Source: Chitinophagales bacterium
GTDB lineage: Bacteria; Bacteroidota; Bacteroidia; Chitinophagales; Saprospiraceae
DNA: 64,000 bases
Assembly: GCA_013298845.1 (NCBI GenBank)
Contig: JAAFJN010000011.1
Span: 1 to 64,000 of the forward strand
Direction: 5' to 3'
Positions 7,442-29,949 of the stretch are shown piece after piece. A model generated the notes under the pieces. It saw only the letters and a list, made by a program, of their open reading frames with translations, was not told where the DNA came from and made no database searches. Position numbers and translations under genes: made by a program. The first letter of the stretch is position 1. The number at the start of each line of letters is the position of its first letter.

Positions 7442-8878
7442 ATGAAACACATTTACCTGATAATAGCCATTGCCCTACAAACATCTGCTTTGGTGGGCCA
7501 ACACACCGTGCCAACAGAGGTAGTTACACCCACCCATACACAAGAACACGTCACCGAAACACCCCACAAGAAACAAGCCGCCAACTTGTTAGAGGCTTTT
7601 GAACAAGGCCATTTTCGCGGGCATTTTCGGACTTATTTTATGGCGACCGACAATACCCGCAACCTCTCGGATTATTACGCGTGGGCAGCGGGCGGAAGTT
7701 TGCACTTTAGCACCGCACCTTGGCACGGGTTTAGTTTTGGGATCGGAGGTATGTTTAACCATAAAATTACCTCCTCCGATCTGACGGCCCGGGACTCGGT
7801 TACCGGTGCGCTGAACCGCTACGAAATTGGGCTATTCGATGTAGAAGACCCCACCAATCACCGTGACTTCGACAGAATGGAGGAATTTTGGTTGCGGTAC
7901 CAGTGGAAAAAATCACTCCTTACGCTGGGCCAACAAGGGATCCAAACTCCATTTATTAATTTCCAGGATGGCCGAATGCGCCCCACCGCCGTTGCGGGCA
8001 TTTGGGCCGAAATAAAAGCACTCAAAAACACCAAACTGGAAGGTGGCTGGTTGTGGAAAATATCGCCGCGAAGCACCGTAGAATGGTATGGTATAGGCGA
8101 ATCCATTGGGTTATATCCCAAGGGCCTCAACCCTGATGGCACGGGGAGCGGCTACGCCACCAACCTCGAAAGTGCCGGTGTAGGCATCATGGGTGCCACC
8201 CGCCAATGGGGCAAACGCACCAAAATTCAGGTATGGGAGCATTATATTGACAATATTTTCAACACTTCCTTTGCGCAGGTGGATTATACCCACCCGCTCG
8301 GCAACGACCACAACCTCCTGCTGGGCGCGCAATTCATCCACCAGGATGCCCTTGCGCACGGCGGCAACGAAGATGCTTCCAAATCGTATTTTGTAAAAGG
8401 TGGTCGGTCCAATGTTATCAGTACGCAGGCGGGTTGGCAACGCGGTAACTGGAAAATCTTGGGCGCTTATACCCATATCACTTCAGACGGACGCTTTTTA
8501 TCGCCCCGAGAATGGGGCCGCGAACCATTTTACACCTTTATGCCCCGCGAACGAATCGAGGGCAGTGGCAATTCGCACGCCGTAACCGGGCGGGTTTTGT
8601 GGCAAAATCCCGCGCAAAAACTCAAGATTGAACTCGCTTACGGTCATTTTTATTTACCCGATGTAAAAGATGCGGCGTTTAACAAATACGCGTTCCCGGC
8701 TTTCCGGCAGGTCAACGTTGACCTGCGGTACACCTTTGGCGATGCATTAAAAGGACTGAAAGCCCAATTTTTGTACGTGTGGAAAGGGCGCATGGGCGAG
8801 GTGTACGGGAACGACCGCTACCTGATTAACAAAGTTGACATGTCGCACTTGAACATCATTTTGAATTATACGTACTAA
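7442..8878 (+). CDS. OprD-like outer membrane porin
   Basis: A 478-aa protein with a Sec signal peptide (residues 1-20, ending VGQ) followed by a beta-barrel pattern of alternating hydrophobic strands and aromatic girdles, ending in ILNYTY with a terminal aromatic residue, as outer membrane barrels do. GHFRTYFMATDN and the loop and strand order resemble the OprD family. It probably admits small anions or organic acids. Sharing a promoter architecture with the tsdA and cstB units, it may be the entry route for sulfur oxyanions; this is inference from regulation only. Confidence 0.7.
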   Translation: MKHIYLIIAIALQTSALVGQHTVPTEVVTPTHTQEHVTETPHKKQAANLLEAFEQGHFRGHFRTYFMATDNTRNLSDYYAWAAGGSLHFSTAPWHGFSFGIGGMFNHKITSSDLTARDSVTGALNRYEIGLFDVEDPTNHRDFDRMEEFWLRYQWKKSLLTLGQQGIQTPFINFQDGRMRPTAVAGIWAEIKALKNTKLEGGWLWKISPRSTVEWYGIGESIGLYPKGLNPDGTGSGYATNLESAGVGIMGATRQWGKRTKIQVWEHYIDNIFNTSFAQVDYTHPLGNDHNLLLGAQFIHQDALAHGGNEDASKSYFVKGGRSNVISTQAGWQRGNWKILGAYTHITSDGRFLSPREWGREPFYTFMPRERIEGSGNSHAVTGRVLWQNPAQKLKIELAYGHFYLPDVKDAAFNKYAFPAFRQVNVDLRYTFGDALKGLKAQFLYVWKGRMGEVYGNDRYLINKVDMSHLNIILNYTY

Positions 8879-15157: not shown

Positions 15158-18100
15158 ATGAAACCGATTTACAAAATATTAGTTGCGGCCTGGCTGCAAC
15201 TGGGCTTTTTATATATGCTCTCTGCCCAAGCCGATTTACGTTTATTTGCCACCCAACCGGTGTACACCGATGCTTTTGCGAATACCAATTTGCAATTTAG
15301 TTTTGATGTATACAACCAGGGCGACCAGACGGCCAATGGCGATTTCCTGATCAAATTTGCTCTTTCTACCGACGATATTTGGTCTCCCGATGATTATCAA
15401 AATGGCAGTGTCTTATCCGGCAATATTGCGGCCGGGCAAGCGGTATTGGCCGTGGAAGGAAATATGAACCTGGGGACTTTGCCCGATACCTATTATTATT
15501 TGTTGCTGTATGCCGATGCCAACGAACAAATTAACGAATCCGATGAAACCAATAACATCGTTGTCGCGGGCTATTTTCGGGTTTTGAGCGGCAATACCCC
15601 CAACCTCACGGCCCAAATCAATGCCACTTGGTGGAGCAATACCAATGTCCTGAATGCCGTGGTGCAGGTCAATAACGCCTCCGCCTGGCCGGTCACCGAT
15701 AGCACCTGGGCAACGGTGTACGCCGCAAATTCGGGGGCGACCATTCAAAAAATACGCATTCCACCGTTACCCGCCTGGGAGTCATTTAGCGCATCGGTTA
15801 CGTCAATTCGCTCCCCGCAGGAACTACTTAACAACCCATTTACCATCGGGTTATTGGCCGATGCGGATGGCACCCTCCCCGAAACCGATGAAAGTGATAA
15901 CCTTACTTTTGTTGATGTACCAGTACCCATGGGCATTACGTTGCCCGACTATGAACTTACCCTTAACCAGCCCACAGTGACCGCCAACGGCGAAGCCATA
16001 CCCGTTGCATTTACGGTGCGCAACGTGGGCGGGGGCATTACACCCGCGGCGAGCGTCACTTTTACATTGCACAACGATTCCACGTTGTATTGGCTCAATA
16101 GTTACCCGCTGGGAACGTATTATTTTGGTACTTTGAACGCCGGACAAATGTACAATGACGCGCTGACGTTGTTGTTGCCGCCCCAAATGAAAACCGGTAC
16201 GTACTGGTTGCGGGCCACCGCCGGTGATGATTTGTATCCGGCCAATAACCAAAGTGTTTTTTTAATCTCCATTAATAACCCGTTCGTACAACCGGAACGG
16301 ATTTTGCTCGGAACCGGCCAGGCGCAGGAGGTTCGACAAAATGCCGATTTATCATACACTGTTTTGGTAAAAACACCCGAAAATAACACCCGGGCGGTCC
16401 TGGTCAATGCCCAGGGAAACATCATCAACAACGCCGATACCGGGCCGTTTGGCGAACAAACAACCTTTGCCGGACCCAATGCTTTGGTTCGGGTACAACG
16501 CGATTCGGGCGGTTTCTTTTTGGTAAAAATGAACGAACAAGGCGTTGTTTTTTGGACAAAATTCATCGCCACGCCCAACGAAGAAATCCCCCAATGTGTT
16601 ACGACAACCACCGATGGCGGCTTTTTGGTGGGTGGATACCAATATTTACCCAACCCCGCCGGAGCCAGCAGCCAGTTGCCGTTTTTACTCCGCACCGATG
16701 CAGATGGAAATGAATTATGGCGGCGCACCGACGGACCGGCAGCGGCGGCCGTAACGCGGCTAACCCAATTACCCAACGGCGATTTCGGGGCTGTTTTAAA
16801 TTATTACGGCTATATTGAACAAATTTTCGGCTTTGACATTCGCCGCATTAGCGCCGATGGCAGCATTTACACCTACGTTGACGGCATTACCAATAACTAC
16901 CAAGGCACTTTTTCCATGAATGCCACCAGCCTGAAAGCCGGTTTTCAGGACAGCACCCTACTCTACTCCGTGAACCAATCGGAATACGGAAAATGGAGTA
17001 CTTATTACCAAAGTTTTTACAAAAAAAACCAGGCCTGGGCGATCAACGAAATGGCCTGTGGCGGAGTTTGTGTTCCGCAAGGCACCACCAGCAGTAGCGT
17101 TACCGTACCTGTCAACGACGGCGGTGGCTTAGCCTTGGGCGAAAACACCAGCGCTTACCACGCGTATTACAGCACCCGCCTCGACGCAGCGGGCAATGTT
17201 GTCTGGCGTAAACCCTACCCTGCCGGTGCCGTTGATGGTGTACAAAACCTCGCCGGGGACGTGGCGATTTGTGGAAATATGGCCGGCATGGCCTACCTCA
17301 CCCTGCTCCGCGCCGATGGTGAACCCGCCGACAACAACGTTTGTCTCACCGATGCCGAACCACCAATTCTGACCGATTGCCCCCAAAATATGGTGATCGA
17401 AACCATCAATAGCAGCGAATACCTGAACTGGACACCGCCCAACGCCGCCGATAACTGTGCGGTGGTATCGGTCACGAGCAACCTGCAACCGGGATACCTC
17501 GCTGCCGGGGTGTACAACATTGAATTTACCGCCACCGATGCCCGGGGTAATACCACAACCTGCCATTTTACCGCCGAAATCGTTGAAGTACCGTGCCTTC
17601 CGGGCATTTATTACTCCTTTTGCGACGACAACCAAACCTCCGGTGTTCCCACGGATGATTCGCTAACGGTGAATTTCAACTTGATCAGTCCCGATACCGT
17701 GGGCTGGACGGCCTTGTTGCAGGATTGGCCGGGTGCCGCACCTTTGAGCGGGATTTTTAACCAAAATTATCCGTTTCAATACGCCATGAGTGATATTAGT
17801 CCGTATTTGCTCGATGGCACTTTAACTTTTCAAGTGACGGGGCAATCGGGTAATCTTTGCGACCAAACGATTACTTTCCTGTTTGATACCAGCGATTATT
17901 GTTACAACCTGCTCACTTACACGAATATAGCAGTATCCAATCTCACGCTGGAGAATCCCGTTGTGCCGGCCGGTTCCAACCTTTTTTTCCGTTTCGATGC
18001 GCGCAATACGGGCAATGCCTTGGCCGAAAACACCTGGGAAATGGGCTATTATCTGTCGCAGGATACCACCATTAGCGCGGAGGATTGGTTCGTTCAACAA

Positions 18101-22871: not shown

Positions 22872-24143
22872 TTACAAACCAGTTGCAACGCTGTTTTGGC
22901 CGCGTTCTTTGATTAAATGTTGTCGAATGTTGGCGGTGCGAAAAACCCCAATGGGATCAATGGCTCCGCCCGCCCGGCGCGTGGCTTCGGCGACCAAAGG
23001 CCGTACATCGAGGGCAAATACGTCGCGGAGCAGTTCTTCGGCGGCCACCACGTCGTTTGATTCCTGCGCGGCCTGCAATTGCGCCCGGTCCACGAGCAAG
23101 GCTTTGGTGTAAGTGACGAGGATATTGTTCACCGATTGTAACAGATCTTCCAGCGGGTCTTTGGTGTTGTGGCTGGCATCAATCATCCAGGCGAGGGGCG
23201 GATTTTTGACCGTTGGGTCTTGCATGGCGTCCACCAATTCGTTAAAAATCAGGAAAAACTGGTACGGTTTGATGCTGCCCGTGGTGAGGTCGTCGTCGCC
23301 GTACATGGAGCCGTTAAAGTGGAACCCGCCGAGGCGGCCAAAGTGCATGAGCCGCGCCACAATCTGTTCGATGTTGGTATTGGGCAAATGATGGCCTAAA
23401 TCCACCAAAACCTGCGCTTTTTCGCCCAAATATTGGCAAAATGCCCACGATGTACCCCAGTCGGGCACGACCATCGAATAAAAATGCGGTTCGTAAGGCT
23501 TGTATTCAATCAGCATGGACCAGTCGTCGGGCAGGGCTTGGTAAATCTCGCCCAAGGCTTCGGCGGTGCGTTGCCAGGCCCGGCGAAAATGCTGCTGTCC
23601 GGGGAAATTGGAACCATCGGCGAGCCAAACAGTGAGCACTTTGGAATCGAGGGCCACTCCGTGCCGGATGCACTCCACGTTGTGCGCCACGGCTTGCGCG
23701 CGCGTAGCCGCGTCGGTGTGCGCGAGGGAACCAAATTTGTACGATAAGGCTTGCCCCGGCTGGTCCTGAAACGTATTAGAATTAACGGAATCAATAGTGA
23801 GGCCGAGGACGGCCAGCAGTTGTTGTAACGCCGCCGGGTCGCGGGGAATATCCCAGGGAATGTGCAACGAAATGGAATTGGACGAGCAGTTGAGGGCGTG
23901 GAGCAAACCCACATCTTCTATTTTTTCTTCGAGGTTACGGGGTTCGCCGCCAATGGGAAAACGCCCAAAACGGGTGCCGCCCGTTCCCAATGCCCACGAT
24001 GGTATGGCCACCTGAAAGGCTTGAATTTGGGCGATGAGCGCTTCAATATTTACGCCGCGTTGGGTGAGTTCTCCGGCGATATAGTCAAAAGCCGCCGCGT
24101 GCCGGGTGCTTTTTTGTTGGTTGTGTTCGTGTATAAGTTCCAT
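22872..24143 (-). CDS. rhaI: L-rhamnose isomerase, RhaI (Pseudomonas stutzeri) type
   Basis: A 423-aa TIM-barrel sugar isomerase. IEYKPYEPHFY supplies the metal-binding Glu, LVDLGHHLPNTNIE the Asp and His, and GFHFNGSMYGDDDLTTG a further metal/substrate cluster, as in the RhaI family rather than E. coli RhaA. It would convert L-rhamnose to L-rhamnulose in the cytosol. It heads an operon of four genes with the kinase, the hydrolase and GH36; a repeat element separates it from the aldolase gene upstream. Confidence 0.83.
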   Translation of the reverse strand: MELIHEHNQQKSTRHAAAFDYIAGELTQRGVNIEALIAQIQAFQVAIPSWALGTGGTRFGRFPIGGEPRNLEEKIEDVGLLHALNCSSNSISLHIPWDIPRDPAALQQLLAVLGLTIDSVNSNTFQDQPGQALSYKFGSLAHTDAATRAQAVAHNVECIRHGVALDSKVLTVWLADGSNFPGQQHFRRAWQRTAEALGEIYQALPDDWSMLIEYKPYEPHFYSMVVPDWGTSWAFCQYLGEKAQVLVDLGHHLPNTNIEQIVARLMHFGRLGGFHFNGSMYGDDDLTTGSIKPYQFFLIFNELVDAMQDPTVKNPPLAWMIDASHNTKDPLEDLLQSVNNILVTYTKALLVDRAQLQAAQESNDVVAAEELLRDVFALDVRPLVAEATRRAGGAIDPIGVFRTANIRQHLIKERGQNSVATGL

Positions 24144-24338: not shown

Positions 24339-26429
24339 TCATCTTAAAAAGCCCATGGCGACGCCGCCGTCCACGTTGAGGGCATTGCCGGTGGATTTAT
24401 TTAACAGGCCGCCAACGAAGGCAAAACAGGCATTGGCAATGTCTTCGGGCAGAATCACCTGGCCCAAAAGCGTGCGTTTGGCGTAAAAAGCGGGCAATTC
24501 CTCGACGGTAATGCCATAGGCTTTGGCGCGACCTTCGGCCCAGCCCCCGGCCCAAATATTGGACCCAGCGATCACGGCATCGGGGTTGACCATGTTGACC
24601 CGGATATTATCGCCGCCCAATTCGGCCGCCATCAGGCGTGTCAGGTGGGCTTGTGCGGCTTTGGCCGAACCGTAACCGGCGTTATTTGGCCCCGAAACAA
24701 CGGCATTTTTGGAAACAATATTCAAAATATCGCCGCCCGTGGCCTGTTTGCGCAAAATCTCCACCGCTGCCTGGCTCACCACAAATTGGCCTTTTACCAA
24801 AATATCGTACAATTTATCCCAATCTTCGAGGGTATGGTCGGTAATACTTTTTGAAATGCTGATACCCGCGTTGTTGACCACAATATCCACGCCGCCAAAC
24901 GCCAGACAAGTATTGGCCAAAGCCACCCGAATACTGGCCGGATCGGTCACGTCGAGCAAGGTTGTGGCCACGGCGTCGCGGCCAAATTGCTGCACAAATG
25001 CGGCGCGGGCCTCTTCCAGGCGCACTTCATTGATGTCGTTGAGGACCACACAAGCGCCTTCTTCGGCAAATTTCCAGGCAATGGCTTTACCAATACCCCC
25101 CGCGCTGCCTGTTACCAAAGCAACTTTGCCCGACAACGGTTTGGGTTTGGGCATTCGTTGCAATTTGGCTTCTTCCAGCAACCAATATTCAATATCGAAG
25201 GCTTCCTGTTCGGCCAAACCCACGTAATCGCTCACGGCCTCGGCACCGCGCATGACATTAATGGCATTGATGTAAAATTCGGCGGCCACGCGGGCGGTTT
25301 GTTTGTCTTTGGCAAACGTAAACATGCCCACGCCGGGGTACAAAATGACCACCGGATTGGGGTCGCGCACCGCCGGGGAATTGGGGTGTTTGCAGCGGTC
25401 GTAGTAGGCCTGGTAATCGGCGCGGTAGGCTTCAAACTGCCGTTCCACGTGGCTGCGGAGGTCGGTTTCGGCCAAATCGGCGGGTAAATCCAGCACCAAC
25501 GGCCGGATTTTGGTCCGCAAAAAGTGGTCGGGGCAAGAGGTACCCATGCGGGCCAAACGCTCCAAATCGTTGGCGTTGATAAATTCCAGTACCCGCTCGT
25601 CGTTGGTAAAATGCCCGATCATGGGGCGGTAACTGCTGGCCAATCCGCGCAAAACGGGCGCAATTTGGGCCGCTGAAACGGGTACCGGGCGGGCCGGAGC
25701 CACCCCACCAAACACGGGTCGGCGTTTGCCGTAATGTTCCGCCAAATACACCGATGCCGTTTCGATGACTTCGAGGGTATTGATATAACTGCTGTAACTG
25801 GTATCGCCCCAGGTAAACAAGCCATGTCCGCCCAGAATAACCCCGCGCAAACCGGGATTTTGGGCCACGGTGGCTTCGAGTTGTAACCCAAGGTCGAAGC
25901 CCGGCCGTTGCCAGTTGAGCCAGGCCATGCTATCGCCCCAAAGTGCGCGCATGATGTCCGGGCCGTCTTTGCTGGCGGCAATGGCGATAATGGCGTCGGG
26001 GTGCAGGTGATCAATGTGTTGATGGGGCAAAAGGCCGTGCAAAGGGGTATCAATGGAGGGGGCGGCGCATTTGGGATCGAACAGGCAATGATCGAACAAA
26101 GCGACCATTTCATCTTCAAACGCAAGGCCGCGGTAGCGGTTTTTGAGGGCGCGGAGCCGCTCGGTGTAGAGGTTGGCGCAACCTTTGCGGGTGAGGGTGC
26201 CAATGTCGCCGCCGCTGCCTTTAACCCACATCACTTCGGCGGGTTGGCCGGTAACGGGGTCGGTTTCGGTGATTTTCACGGAGGTATTCCCCCCCGCAAA
26301 ATTGGTCAGGCGCAAATCAGCCCCCAATAAATTGGAGCGGTAAATGAATAAATCTACCTCGTTTCCGGCCATTGAAGCGGCTTTTTGGTCGTCCCAGAGG
26401 TACGAAACGTGCTTAAAGTTTTTTGTCAT
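24339..26429 (-). CDS. Bifunctional rhamnulose-1-phosphate aldolase/lactaldehyde dehydrogenase (RhaD-type fusion)
   Basis: A 696-aa fusion. The N-terminal class II aldolase domain (about 1-400) has HHxD-type zinc-site features (LPHQHIDHLHPDAI and GGHGLFTWG). The C-terminal short-chain dehydrogenase (about 430-696) has the NAD motif VTGSAGGIGKA, NNAGIS and an active site with YGSAKAA. It would split L-rhamnulose-1-phosphate into DHAP and L-lactaldehyde and oxidise the aldehyde to L-lactate. Start at 26429; the Uma2 gene starts divergently 39 nt away. Confidence 0.88.
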   Translation of the reverse strand: MTKNFKHVSYLWDDQKAASMAGNEVDLFIYRSNLLGADLRLTNFAGGNTSVKITETDPVTGQPAEVMWVKGSGGDIGTLTRKGCANLYTERLRALKNRYRGLAFEDEMVALFDHCLFDPKCAAPSIDTPLHGLLPHQHIDHLHPDAIIAIAASKDGPDIMRALWGDSMAWLNWQRPGFDLGLQLEATVAQNPGLRGVILGGHGLFTWGDTSYSSYINTLEVIETASVYLAEHYGKRRPVFGGVAPARPVPVSAAQIAPVLRGLASSYRPMIGHFTNDERVLEFINANDLERLARMGTSCPDHFLRTKIRPLVLDLPADLAETDLRSHVERQFEAYRADYQAYYDRCKHPNSPAVRDPNPVVILYPGVGMFTFAKDKQTARVAAEFYINAINVMRGAEAVSDYVGLAEQEAFDIEYWLLEEAKLQRMPKPKPLSGKVALVTGSAGGIGKAIAWKFAEEGACVVLNDINEVRLEEARAAFVQQFGRDAVATTLLDVTDPASIRVALANTCLAFGGVDIVVNNAGISISKSITDHTLEDWDKLYDILVKGQFVVSQAAVEILRKQATGGDILNIVSKNAVVSGPNNAGYGSAKAAQAHLTRLMAAELGGDNIRVNMVNPDAVIAGSNIWAGGWAEGRAKAYGITVEELPAFYAKRTLLGQVILPEDIANACFAFVGGLLNKSTGNALNVDGGVAMGFLR

Positions 26430-26446
26430 TTTTTATATTTTCGACC

Positions 26447-26454
26447 TAATTTTG
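26447..26454 (+). promoter_or_regulatory. -7 promoter element of the Uma2 gene
   Basis: TAATTTTG, a TAnnTTTG match 14 nt before the ATG at 26469. Confidence 0.45.
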
Positions 26455-26468
26455 CAAAAAAAAGTAGC

Positions 26469-27074
26469 ATGAAAGAAATTATCAGTTTGGATCAATTGGA
26501 CTTGGAAAATAGCCAATACTCTTACGCCGACTACCTGACCTGGAAATTTGAACAAACCGTTGAACTGATTAAAGGTAAAATATCGGCAATGTCGGCTCCT
26601 ACGCGGTATCATCAGGCGATTTCGTGGGAATTGACCTTGCAATTGGGTATTCAACTCAAAAACAAACCCTGCCAGTCTTTCGCTGCTCCATTCGACGTTC
26701 GTTTTTTGGACAAAAATAAATCAGTCCGCGCTAACAAAGATATTTTTACCGTGGTTCAACCTGATCTTTGCGTGGTGTGCGACAAAAACAAATTGGACGA
26801 CAAGGGCTGCGTTGGTGCCCCCGATTTGGTGGTCGAAATTTTGTCGCGTGGTAATTCGTCCAAAGAAATGACCATCAAAAAACAACTGTACGAAGAACAG
26901 GGCGTGCGCGAATATTGGATTTTTGCCTCCGAACATGGCCACGTTATGCGTTATCACCTTACCGAGGACGGGGTGTTTAGCGCACCCACCATTTTTGTCA
27001 AAGAAGACATATTACCCAGTGTTATTTTTCCCGATTTATCCATTAATTTGAACGACGTTTTTCACTACGAATAA
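26469..27074 (+). CDS. Uma2-family (DUF820) putative endonuclease
   Basis: 201 aa from the ATG at 26469; the frame is open further upstream but the promoter element lies at 26447-26454. It shows the Uma2 layout: an N-terminal YADYLTWKFEQTVELIKGKI, then VVQPDLCVVCDKNKLD and GAPDLVVEILSRGNSSKEM with the PD-(D/E)XK residues, and the KKQLYEEQGVREYWIF helix. The physiological role of the family is unclear. It is on the opposite strand to the rhamnose genes it interrupts, so it is probably an inserted cassette. Confidence 0.85.
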   Translation: MKEIISLDQLDLENSQYSYADYLTWKFEQTVELIKGKISAMSAPTRYHQAISWELTLQLGIQLKNKPCQSFAAPFDVRFLDKNKSVRANKDIFTVVQPDLCVVCDKNKLDDKGCVGAPDLVVEILSRGNSSKEMTIKKQLYEEQGVREYWIFASEHGHVMRYHLTEDGVFSAPTIFVKEDILPSVIFPDLSINLNDVFHYE

Positions 27075-27089
27075 AAGACTTTATTCGAA

Positions 27090-28220
27090 TTATTTTATCA
27101 AAAAACTCGGAAAATCCGGCACTTTTTCGCAACAAACCTGCTCCATTACCTGCTGTAATTGTTTTTTCAAAATAGTCGCTACGTGGTCGCCGCCTTCGGC
27201 ACCCAGCGCGGCTACCCCGTACATAAACGAACGCCCCAAAAACGCAAATTCCGCCCCGGAGGCGAGGGTTCGCGCAATATCCACGCCCGACCGTACGCCC
27301 GAATCCATCATGATTTTGATTTTTCCGGCGTATTGCTCCACAATGGGTTCCATGGATTTTACGGCCGATTGCCCAGAGATCGGAAGAGCGCCGCCGTGGT
27401 TGGACACAATAATGCCGTCGAAACCGAGGCGAATGGCCATTTCGGTATCTTCGGCGCTGGCCACTCCTTTGAGCACCAGTTTCCCTTTCCAGCGGTCGCG
27501 GATGGGGGCAATTTTGGCTTCGTTGACGCGCCCCGAAAAGGTTTGGTTCATGTATTGGCCCAATTGCCCCATGTTGAGGTTTTTGGGCATGTATTTTTTT
27601 AAATTGGCAAATTCCGGCTGGCCATGGAACAAGGTGCGCAAGGCCCAATTGGGTTTGCCCATAATCTGGAGCATATTGGCCACGGTCATTTTGGGTGGCA
27701 TGGCCAGTCCGTTGCGGATGTCGCGGGGACGGTACCCAAAACTGGGCACGTCGCAAAGCACACAAAGTACGTCGCAACCGGCCGCTTCGGCGCGGTCGAG
27801 CAGGTCGTCGCGGAGGCTGTTTTCGGCGGGGTGATAGAGTTGAAACCAGAAATTGCCGTCGGTGATTTTCCCGATGGTTTCGAGGCTGGCCGTGGTAACG
27901 GTGCTCAAAACAAAGGGAATATTGTGTTTTCGGGCGGCTTTGGCCAATATTTCGGGCGCGCCGGGCCACATTAAACCCTGTAAACCAATGGGCGCAATGC
28001 CAAAGGGCGCATCGTAGGTTTTGCCAAACAATTCGGTGCGCATATCGGAGGTGGTATGCTGCGAAAGGTAATAGGGTTTTAATTCTACCTCCCGGAGTTC
28101 GGCGGTGTTTTTGTGCAGATTTACATCTTCGTTACAACCACCGTCGAGGTATTCAAAAGCAAACCGCGGAATACGCCGCCGGGCGCGTTCGCGCAGATCT
28201 TCTATGGATGGGTACTTCAT
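27090..28220 (-). CDS. lldD: FMN-dependent alpha-hydroxy-acid oxidase/L-lactate dehydrogenase
   Basis: A 376-aa protein of the family of flavocytochrome b2, lactate oxidase and glycolate oxidase. FEYLDGGCNED opens it, FGIAPIGLQG and the barrel follow, and catalytic His275 is in SNHGG. The expected next residues R-Q-L-D are replaced by ALPIS (278-282), removing the substrate-binding Arg. The DNA there (27377-27390) equals the Illumina adapter core, so the change is probably an artefact. In the rhamnose block it would oxidise L-lactate to pyruvate, feeding quinone or O2. Confidence 0.88.
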   Translation of the reverse strand: MKYPSIEDLRERARRRIPRFAFEYLDGGCNEDVNLHKNTAELREVELKPYYLSQHTTSDMRTELFGKTYDAPFGIAPIGLQGLMWPGAPEILAKAARKHNIPFVLSTVTTASLETIGKITDGNFWFQLYHPAENSLRDDLLDRAEAAGCDVLCVLCDVPSFGYRPRDIRNGLAMPPKMTVANMLQIMGKPNWALRTLFHGQPEFANLKKYMPKNLNMGQLGQYMNQTFSGRVNEAKIAPIRDRWKGKLVLKGVASAEDTEMAIRLGFDGIIVSNHGGALPISGQSAVKSMEPIVEQYAGKIKIMMDSGVRSGVDIARTLASGAEFAFLGRSFMYGVAALGAEGGDHVATILKKQLQQVMEQVCCEKVPDFPSFLIK

Positions 28221-28250: not shown

Positions 28251-29303
28251 TTACAACGCATTGCCAATGCCCACCAAAAAGATGGATACCATAATTAAGC
28301 CCAAACCAACGAGAAAGGTGCGGAACGTGGCCCCGGAAACGCCCTTCCATTCTTTGAGGTACAAACCCCAAAGGTTGGCCGTGAGGATAATGGTGGCCAT
28401 GTGCAAAATCCAGGAAGAGGCACCATTGCCCAATTTGGATTCGCCCATGCCGTAAAAAAAGAACTGCAAAAACCACAAAATGCCCGCCGCCGCCGAAAAC
28501 AGGGCGTTGCGGCCGTTGGGCGTGTTGGGTTTTAGGAAATTGCCCAACGTGCGGTTTTTGAACATGAGGTACGTGCACCAAAGGAGATTGGTCGTAAGAC
28601 CACCCCACAATACCACAATGTACGTGACGTTGTTTTGAAACAGCGGATTAGCCCCCTGCACTACCGCCTGTTCGGCCATTGTTTTCCCGGCTTCGATACC
28701 AAAATTGAAAAAAGAACTCAAAATGCCCGAAATAACGGCAATAATCAACCCTTTCACGAGGCTAAACTCCTGCACGCTGCCGGCTTTTTGTTCGGCGGTG
28801 AGTTCTTTTTCTTTCATCATACCGGCGCGTCCGGTAACGGCAATACCCGCCAGACACACCGCCACGCCCAACAACACCAATTGCCCGCCGGGGTGCTGTA
28901 CCATGTCTACCACACTTGTTTTACCCGGCGTGGGGTTAACGGCGTAATACACCGAAGGCACCAGCGCGCCAAACGCCGAACAAAAGCCCAATACCACCGA
29001 ATTGCCCAGCGACATACCGAGGTAGCGTACGCCCAGTCCGTAGGTCAGCCCCCCGATGCCCCACAGCAGCCCCATGAGGTAGGTGAAATTTTTGACCGTA
29101 CCATCGGTTTGGGCAATAATGTCGCTAAAATGCGGAATGGTGATCCAGGCGGCAATAAATGGGGCAAAAAGCCACGAAAACAACCCGCCAAACAACCAAA
29201 ACACTTCCCAAGCCCAGCCTTTTACCTTGTTGTAAGGCATGTAAAAACTGCCGGACGAAATACCGCCGATGGTGTGATAAATAATACCGAGTAGTACTTG
29301 CAT
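28251..29303 (-). CDS. rhaT: L-rhamnose/H+ symporter
   Basis: 350 aa from the start MQVLLGIIYHTIGGISSGSF; the frame stays open upstream but has no family similarity there. About ten hydrophobic helices, with the RhaT-like N-terminus SGSFYMPYNKVKGWAWEVFW and the GLLWGIGGLTYGLGVRYLGM segment. It brings L-rhamnose across the inner membrane. It is followed 30 nt later by the lactate oxidase on the same strand, so the two are probably co-transcribed. Confidence 0.88.
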   Translation of the reverse strand: MQVLLGIIYHTIGGISSGSFYMPYNKVKGWAWEVFWLFGGLFSWLFAPFIAAWITIPHFSDIIAQTDGTVKNFTYLMGLLWGIGGLTYGLGVRYLGMSLGNSVVLGFCSAFGALVPSVYYAVNPTPGKTSVVDMVQHPGGQLVLLGVAVCLAGIAVTGRAGMMKEKELTAEQKAGSVQEFSLVKGLIIAVISGILSSFFNFGIEAGKTMAEQAVVQGANPLFQNNVTYIVVLWGGLTTNLLWCTYLMFKNRTLGNFLKPNTPNGRNALFSAAAGILWFLQFFFYGMGESKLGNGASSWILHMATIILTANLWGLYLKEWKGVSGATFRTFLVGLGLIMVSIFLVGIGNAL

Positions 29304-29949
29304 AAAGTTGATGTTTAAACCCGACGGCAAAAGTGGCGAATTCGCGGGATAATTTAGCAGAAGCGGGAAACTTGTTTGGATTTTTTCATGCCGAGGGCTG
29401 GCATTAGACCTTGGGCACAAGACCGCATCCTACACGATTTTTACCTACAAGGAACCGCCCCAAGTGCGCCAACAGTACAAGCCCCGGGTGTGTCAATCTG
29501 CCAAATCTGCCAGATTTGGTAGATTTTATCCACAAGAGCAGGAATAAAAGACGAAAGTCTCCGGTGTGTACAACTTCGAATACCCGGCTTTCCCCCAGGA
29601 ACCGCCCCAAGTGCGCCAACAGTACAAGCCCCGGGTGTAATCCAGCGGATAAAACGTGCCCGCTGCTCGTTTACTTCGAGTGCCCCGATAAACATCACAT
29701 CTTGTCACGCAGCGGGAATATGATGCCTAACCGATGTACGCGCCCGCAGGGCTACTTCGGGGCAGAAATCTACCAAATCTGGGAGATTTGGCAGATTGGC
29801 ACACCCAAAATCGTGGATAATCCAATGAATGGAACGGGTAAACTGCTCGTTTACTTCGAGTGCCCCGATAAACATCACATCTTGTAATGCAGCGGTGATG
29901 TGATGCTTGTCAGGATGGTAGATGTGAAAAACGAAAAGTGGGGGCATAA
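29304..29949. repeat. Dispersed palindromic/direct repeat cluster without genes
   Basis: Two direct copies of a segment beginning GGAACCGCCCCAAGTGCGCC (29450 and 29600), two copies of one beginning CTGCTCGTTTACTTCGAGTG (29661 and 29839), and two dyads around CCAAATCTG...CAGATTTGG. The part 29735-29825 is an inverted copy of 108-200. A 158-codon open frame here merely translates the repeats and I do not count it as a gene. Confidence 0.65.

Follow-up and report, generated by a model that had tools for sequence, protein, structure and literature searches.

The window, a stretch of 64,000 nucleotides from a Chitinophagales bacterium, carries on its minus strand (27090–28220) a gene for an FMN-dependent 2-hydroxyacid dehydrogenase of 376 amino acids, L-lactate dehydrogenase-like, identified by PF01070 and by its relatives. 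The protein scores 376.9 bits against PF01070, above the cut-off of 24.9, and its relatives of solved structure include L-lactate oxidases and the (S)-mandelate dehydrogenase 6bfg, the latter a full-length match aligned over residues 5–369. All three models for narrower functions fall below their cut-offs: the L-lactate oxidase model TIGR02708 (150.2 against 645.5 bits) and the two models for the L-lactate dehydrogenase LldD, NF033901 (243.7 against 550 bits) and NF008398 (286.6 against 376 bits), the scores being somewhat depressed by the adapter sequence described below. As the oxidase and LldD models are below cut-off, and as the neighbours form an L-rhamnose cluster, the name “lactate oxidase” used in the earlier note is a tentative label.

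The cluster lies on the same strand on both sides of the gene. An L-rhamnose isomerase-like gene (22872–24143, minus strand; best model TIGR02629, 512.1 bits, below the cut-off of 646.75) and a bifunctional aldolase/short-chain dehydrogenase gene of L-rhamnose breakdown (24339–26429, minus strand; NF006191, 1286.3 bits against 1240) are found on one side, and the gene for the L-rhamnose/proton symporter RhaT (28251–29420, minus strand; NF010024, 509.3 bits against 468; PF06379) on the other. The pathway of L-rhamnose breakdown yields L-lactaldehyde and then L-lactate; the enzyme therefore probably oxidises L-lactate to pyruvate, judging from cluster and pathway together. Among relatives, the isomerase, the aldolase or RhaT is found near 28 of 80 named loci (the best 80 of 111; flanks of 3 kb, where the sequence extends that far), the isomerase at 25, the aldolase at 10 and RhaT at one.

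Three further features belong to this neighbourhood. A Uma2-family gene (PF05685, a putative endonuclease; 26385–27074) lies on the opposite strand between the aldolase gene and the dehydrogenase gene. The RhaT models start at residues 40–45 of the 389 encoded by the open frame 28251–29420, and the 5′ end of the listed frame probably extends too far. Between RhaT and a gene resembling old yellow enzyme, a repeat cluster (29450–29906) contains a 42-nt direct repeat (two copies, 100%), an 89-nt direct repeat (two copies, 83%) and inverted arms of 41 nt at 29486 and 29766.

The minus-strand frame of the dehydrogenase gene is open across all 376 residues, in keeping with the intact frame of the earlier note, and its translation at the site of interest is SNHGGALPISGQSAVKSM. 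The motif of the deposited protein reads SNHGG-ALPIS-GQS, with the codons of SNHGG-ALPIS (residues 273–282) at 27375–27404 on the minus strand, where the relatives have SNHGG-RQ[LIVF][DN]-x, one of them with SNHGA. On the plus strand, bases 27377–27389 read AGATCGGAAGAGC, the Illumina TruSeq adapter core, exact at 13 of 13 bases. A G follows, so that 14 bases (27377–27390, plus strand) match the universal arm, in place of the codons of residues 278–281 and the first base of codon 282; base 27390 is compatible with the universal arm and with a glycine codon alike. The match and its fitting next base had been reported from the letters and are exactly as described. After 27390 the agreement with the adapter stops, at 13–14 bases in total, and the site is internal to its contig of 164,682 bases, with 137,293 bases between it and the downstream end: the adapter neither continues beyond its core nor stands at a contig end.

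The window holds one exact copy of AGATCGGAAGAGC, where 0.00023, 0.00031 or 0.00043 copies are expected on both strands under Markov models of order 1, 2 or 3, which bears out the claim that a chance 13-mer here is very improbable; by simple scaling to 6.37 Mb, about 0.02–0.04 exact copies would be expected genome-wide. With up to two mismatches allowed, AGATCGGAAGAGC occurs at two places in the window (the second at 7770) against a shuffle mean of 0.47, and at least two such places occur in 7 of 100 shuffles. Thus it is the exactness of the match that is unusual, and not the count at two mismatches or fewer.

Relatives were gathered in two ways. A search of 60 genomes, including the organism's own, at E ≤ 0.001 gave matches in 30, some of them to more distant family members only; in the own genome it gave a single match, with no second, intact copy. 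A scan of named genome contigs gave 111 relatives, of which the best 80 were retained, and the closest among these 80 are metagenome-assembled Saprospiraceae or Saprospirales, 84–85% identical in the best segment. The comparison set (loci L005–L024 and L034–L113) has 100 rows, which represent 95 distinct proteins, since five pairs are one gene twice; as L023 ends before the site, 94 distinct relatives cover it.

All 94 have R-Q at positions 278–279, in the forms RQLD (84), RQID (8), RQVD (1) and RQFN (1), and none has ALPIS at the homologous site. Relatives sharing SNHGGALPIS were the case that the earlier note had named as fatal to its reading, and its statement that SNHGG-RQLDA had been turned into SNHGG-ALPIS agrees with what the relatives show. 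Over loci L005–L033, the motif is visible in 28 of 29, with R-Q in every one of the 28.

At least 95% conservation among the distinct relatives is found at 127 positions, of which the window protein keeps 124 and breaks three (R278, Q279 and D281), all of them encoded by the 13 adapter bases; with the duplicate relatives counted, the same three are broken, of 128 conserved positions. The residues on either side keep the expected pattern, as had been noted before. Among the 95 relatives, which served as a control, only L024 (38% identical) has three or more such positions broken in a span of four residues; this comparison is slightly biased in favour of the relatives, which helped to define the conserved positions. 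The same picture emerges with L034 and L035, which are 84.0% and 84.6% identical to the window protein in an ungapped, residue-by-residue comparison: a single five-residue stretch differs from both at all five residues, and it starts at residue 278. Within the 13 bases there are 10 nucleotide mismatches to L034 and 11 to L035; elsewhere in the gene, one more 13-base stretch reaches 10 for L034 and none reaches 11 for L035. Right after the 13 bases the relatives' codon pattern picks up again, and this, together with the ungapped alignment, indicates a replacement of equal length.

The residues lost belong to the active site. In flavocytochrome b2 (PMC6689062), His373 deprotonates the hydroxyl group of the substrate and Arg376 neutralises its carboxylate. 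This H-x-x-R spacing is that of SNHGGR in the relatives; the deposited sequence has the catalytic histidine and lacks the substrate-binding arginine, so that the loss of the Arg376 equivalent, proposed from the sequence alone, holds. An enzyme with the deposited sequence, if real, would probably have little or no activity on lactate. We nevertheless assign the gene to PF01070 despite the absent arginine, because the departure is the adapter artefact itself.

Adapter sequence is also found elsewhere in the same assembly (6,367,938 bases in 89 contigs). AGATCGGAAGAGC occurs at three places. One is the site in the window; contig C26 opens with another, within 17 nt of universal arm in outward orientation, and contig C81 closes with the third, within 15 nt of index arm. 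The 11-mer core AGATCGGAAGA is confined to those three places genome-wide. With up to two mismatches, AGATCGGAAGAGCG is found at 17 places in the genome, namely the three known ones, with 0, 0 and 1 mismatch, plus 14 more that have two each, and CCTACACGACGCTC of the universal arm has no match in the genome at one mismatch or fewer. The adapter at the ends of C26 and C81 means that adapter remained in the data behind the assembly, and the short pieces (13–14, 15 and 17 nt) could be explained by a trimmer that overlooks short tails.

Besides the window, 368,362 bases in 20 stretches were examined directly, and the whole genome by pattern searches. Shorter adapter pieces were looked for at 12 contig ends: adapter is present at the left end of C26 and the right end of C81, and the other 10 are without any piece of at least 4 nt. 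The only run of N in these 368,362 bases is one of exactly 10 in C26 (positions 17250–17259 of stretch L188, genome G000), so that the assembly was scaffolded at least once; the window contains no N. An internal match to the index-arm sequence GAACTCCAGTCAC (C34:208331) was taken as chance, the preceding bases not being adapter. The left ends of C81 (L189) and C34 (L197) in G000 have identical first 30 bases, as expected if both contigs break at the same repeat.

A survey of 396 genomes of the order for the exact 13-mer gave 52 matches in 36 genomes, 25 at contig ends and 27 internal. Those at contig ends lie at most 57 bases from the end with the adapter directed outwards, and 18 of the 25 are part of an unbroken 15–33 bases of one arm (the comparison extended to 33 bases); the 23 beyond the own assembly's two are the same kind of leftover. 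The internal matches comprise the one in the window, four that run into N in genome G047, and 22 others. In G047, the four cores (L160, L163, L164 and L166) run directly into N, these being scaffolds built from adapter-tailed contigs.

The 22 other internal matches were sorted by position, and none of them is called a scar. Several look natural: one (L141) encodes EIGRAGRDG, which we take to be a motif of a RecQ-like protein, and two (L124 and L125), from two congeneric genomes, lie in proteins that resemble each other. The 13-mer alone is thus no proof of adapter, and what decides the present case is the conflict with the relatives together with the adapter at contig ends of this very assembly. 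A control with the reversed pattern gave two matches; it is not taken as proof of an excess, since CTAG, a tetranucleotide that is rare in many bacteria, is part of the reversed pattern.

On these grounds, we hold it as very nearly certain that the scar is an equal-length artefact of adapter read-through and no natural variant. The earlier note had likewise preferred an artefact to an inactive enzyme, and the absence of ALPIS from all 94 covering relatives and the longer adapter pieces at two contig ends both speak for this. In the living organism the gene most likely has the ordinary SNHGGRQ-type motif and gives a normal enzyme. Directly observed are the adapter sequence, the conserved motif of the relatives, the equal length and the leftover adapter at two contig ends; the direction of reading, the insert end and the route are inferred, and the low coverage and polishing named in the earlier note are likewise conjectural. 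A short read would have continued beyond its insert, which would end at 27376 on the plus strand, into the TruSeq universal adapter, and its last 13–14 bases, left untrimmed, would have become assembled sequence and displaced as many genomic bases. As for the route, a consensus or polishing step that works column by column, without gaps, on few reads is the likeliest, and also the simplest because the length is preserved; gap closing beside an adapter-tailed contig is a possible alternative. A counterpoint to an artefact is that the scar lies inside a contig, whereas adapter leftovers are usually at ends. Other points on that side are the end of the adapter match after 27390, the internal copies of the 13-mer in the order that look natural, and the second stretch of the gene with 10 mismatches to L034.

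It is very improbable that the sequence is real, with RQLDx replaced by ALPIS, an enzyme that is inactive or has another activity, and an adapter match that is coincidental. The intact frame would agree with such a change, as would the gene being the only copy found in its own genome and the probable existence of natural copies of the 13-mer in other genomes. If true, SNHGGALPIS would describe a flavoenzyme of a rhamnose cluster that has no carboxylate-binding arginine while the rest of it is under full constraint, which would imply that it had either gained a new activity or been inactivated very recently. Against this, none of the 94 relatives shows ALPIS, the retention of 124 of 127 conserved positions is unexpected for a dead or re-purposed enzyme, four to five adjacent residues would have to change at once and exactly to the adapter sequence, and the assembly carries adapter at two of its contig ends.

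Still less probable is a mis-join at the site of two unrelated contigs, one of them adapter-tailed, for which one could invoke the scaffolding evident from the 10 N in C26 and the adapter cores that lead into N in G047, but which would leave two unrelated sides, where both sides here are one gene that matches its relatives from residue 1 to 376 with its length unchanged, the rhamnose genes lie on either side of the site, and the relative L036 also has aldolase and RhaT genes flanking the gene, one per side. Natural gene conversion or insertion is rejected, since the length and both flanks are unchanged and the sequence is found in no relative.

The equal-length adapter artefact is a warning and no discovery: with the base count unchanged, such a piece keeps the frame open, and the protein so resembles an enzyme altered at its active site. 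When the adapter core in translation (ALPIS, RSSDL, LFRS, EIGRA and others) turns up within conserved motifs, this is a usable alarm; as natural occurrences are probable, for instance in a RecQ-like protein, relatives should be compared before a scar is called. The titles and the openings of abstracts in the part of the literature searched contain no description of equal-length internal adapter scars; the bodies of these papers may differ.

Compared with the enzymes of PF01070 (flavocytochrome b2, LldD, lactate oxidase and mandelate dehydrogenase), the deposited protein retains SNHGG and with it the histidine equivalent to His373. Unlike flavocytochrome b2 (PMC6689062), it has no arginine three residues past that histidine (Arg376), a gap for which the adapter accounts. 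With the Illumina TruSeq read-through left in draft assemblies the scar has the exact adapter core in common, 25 of the 52 matches in the order being at contig ends. It differs from the usual leftover of this kind in being internal, of equal length and with the frame open, and for this reason it looks like a protein variant.
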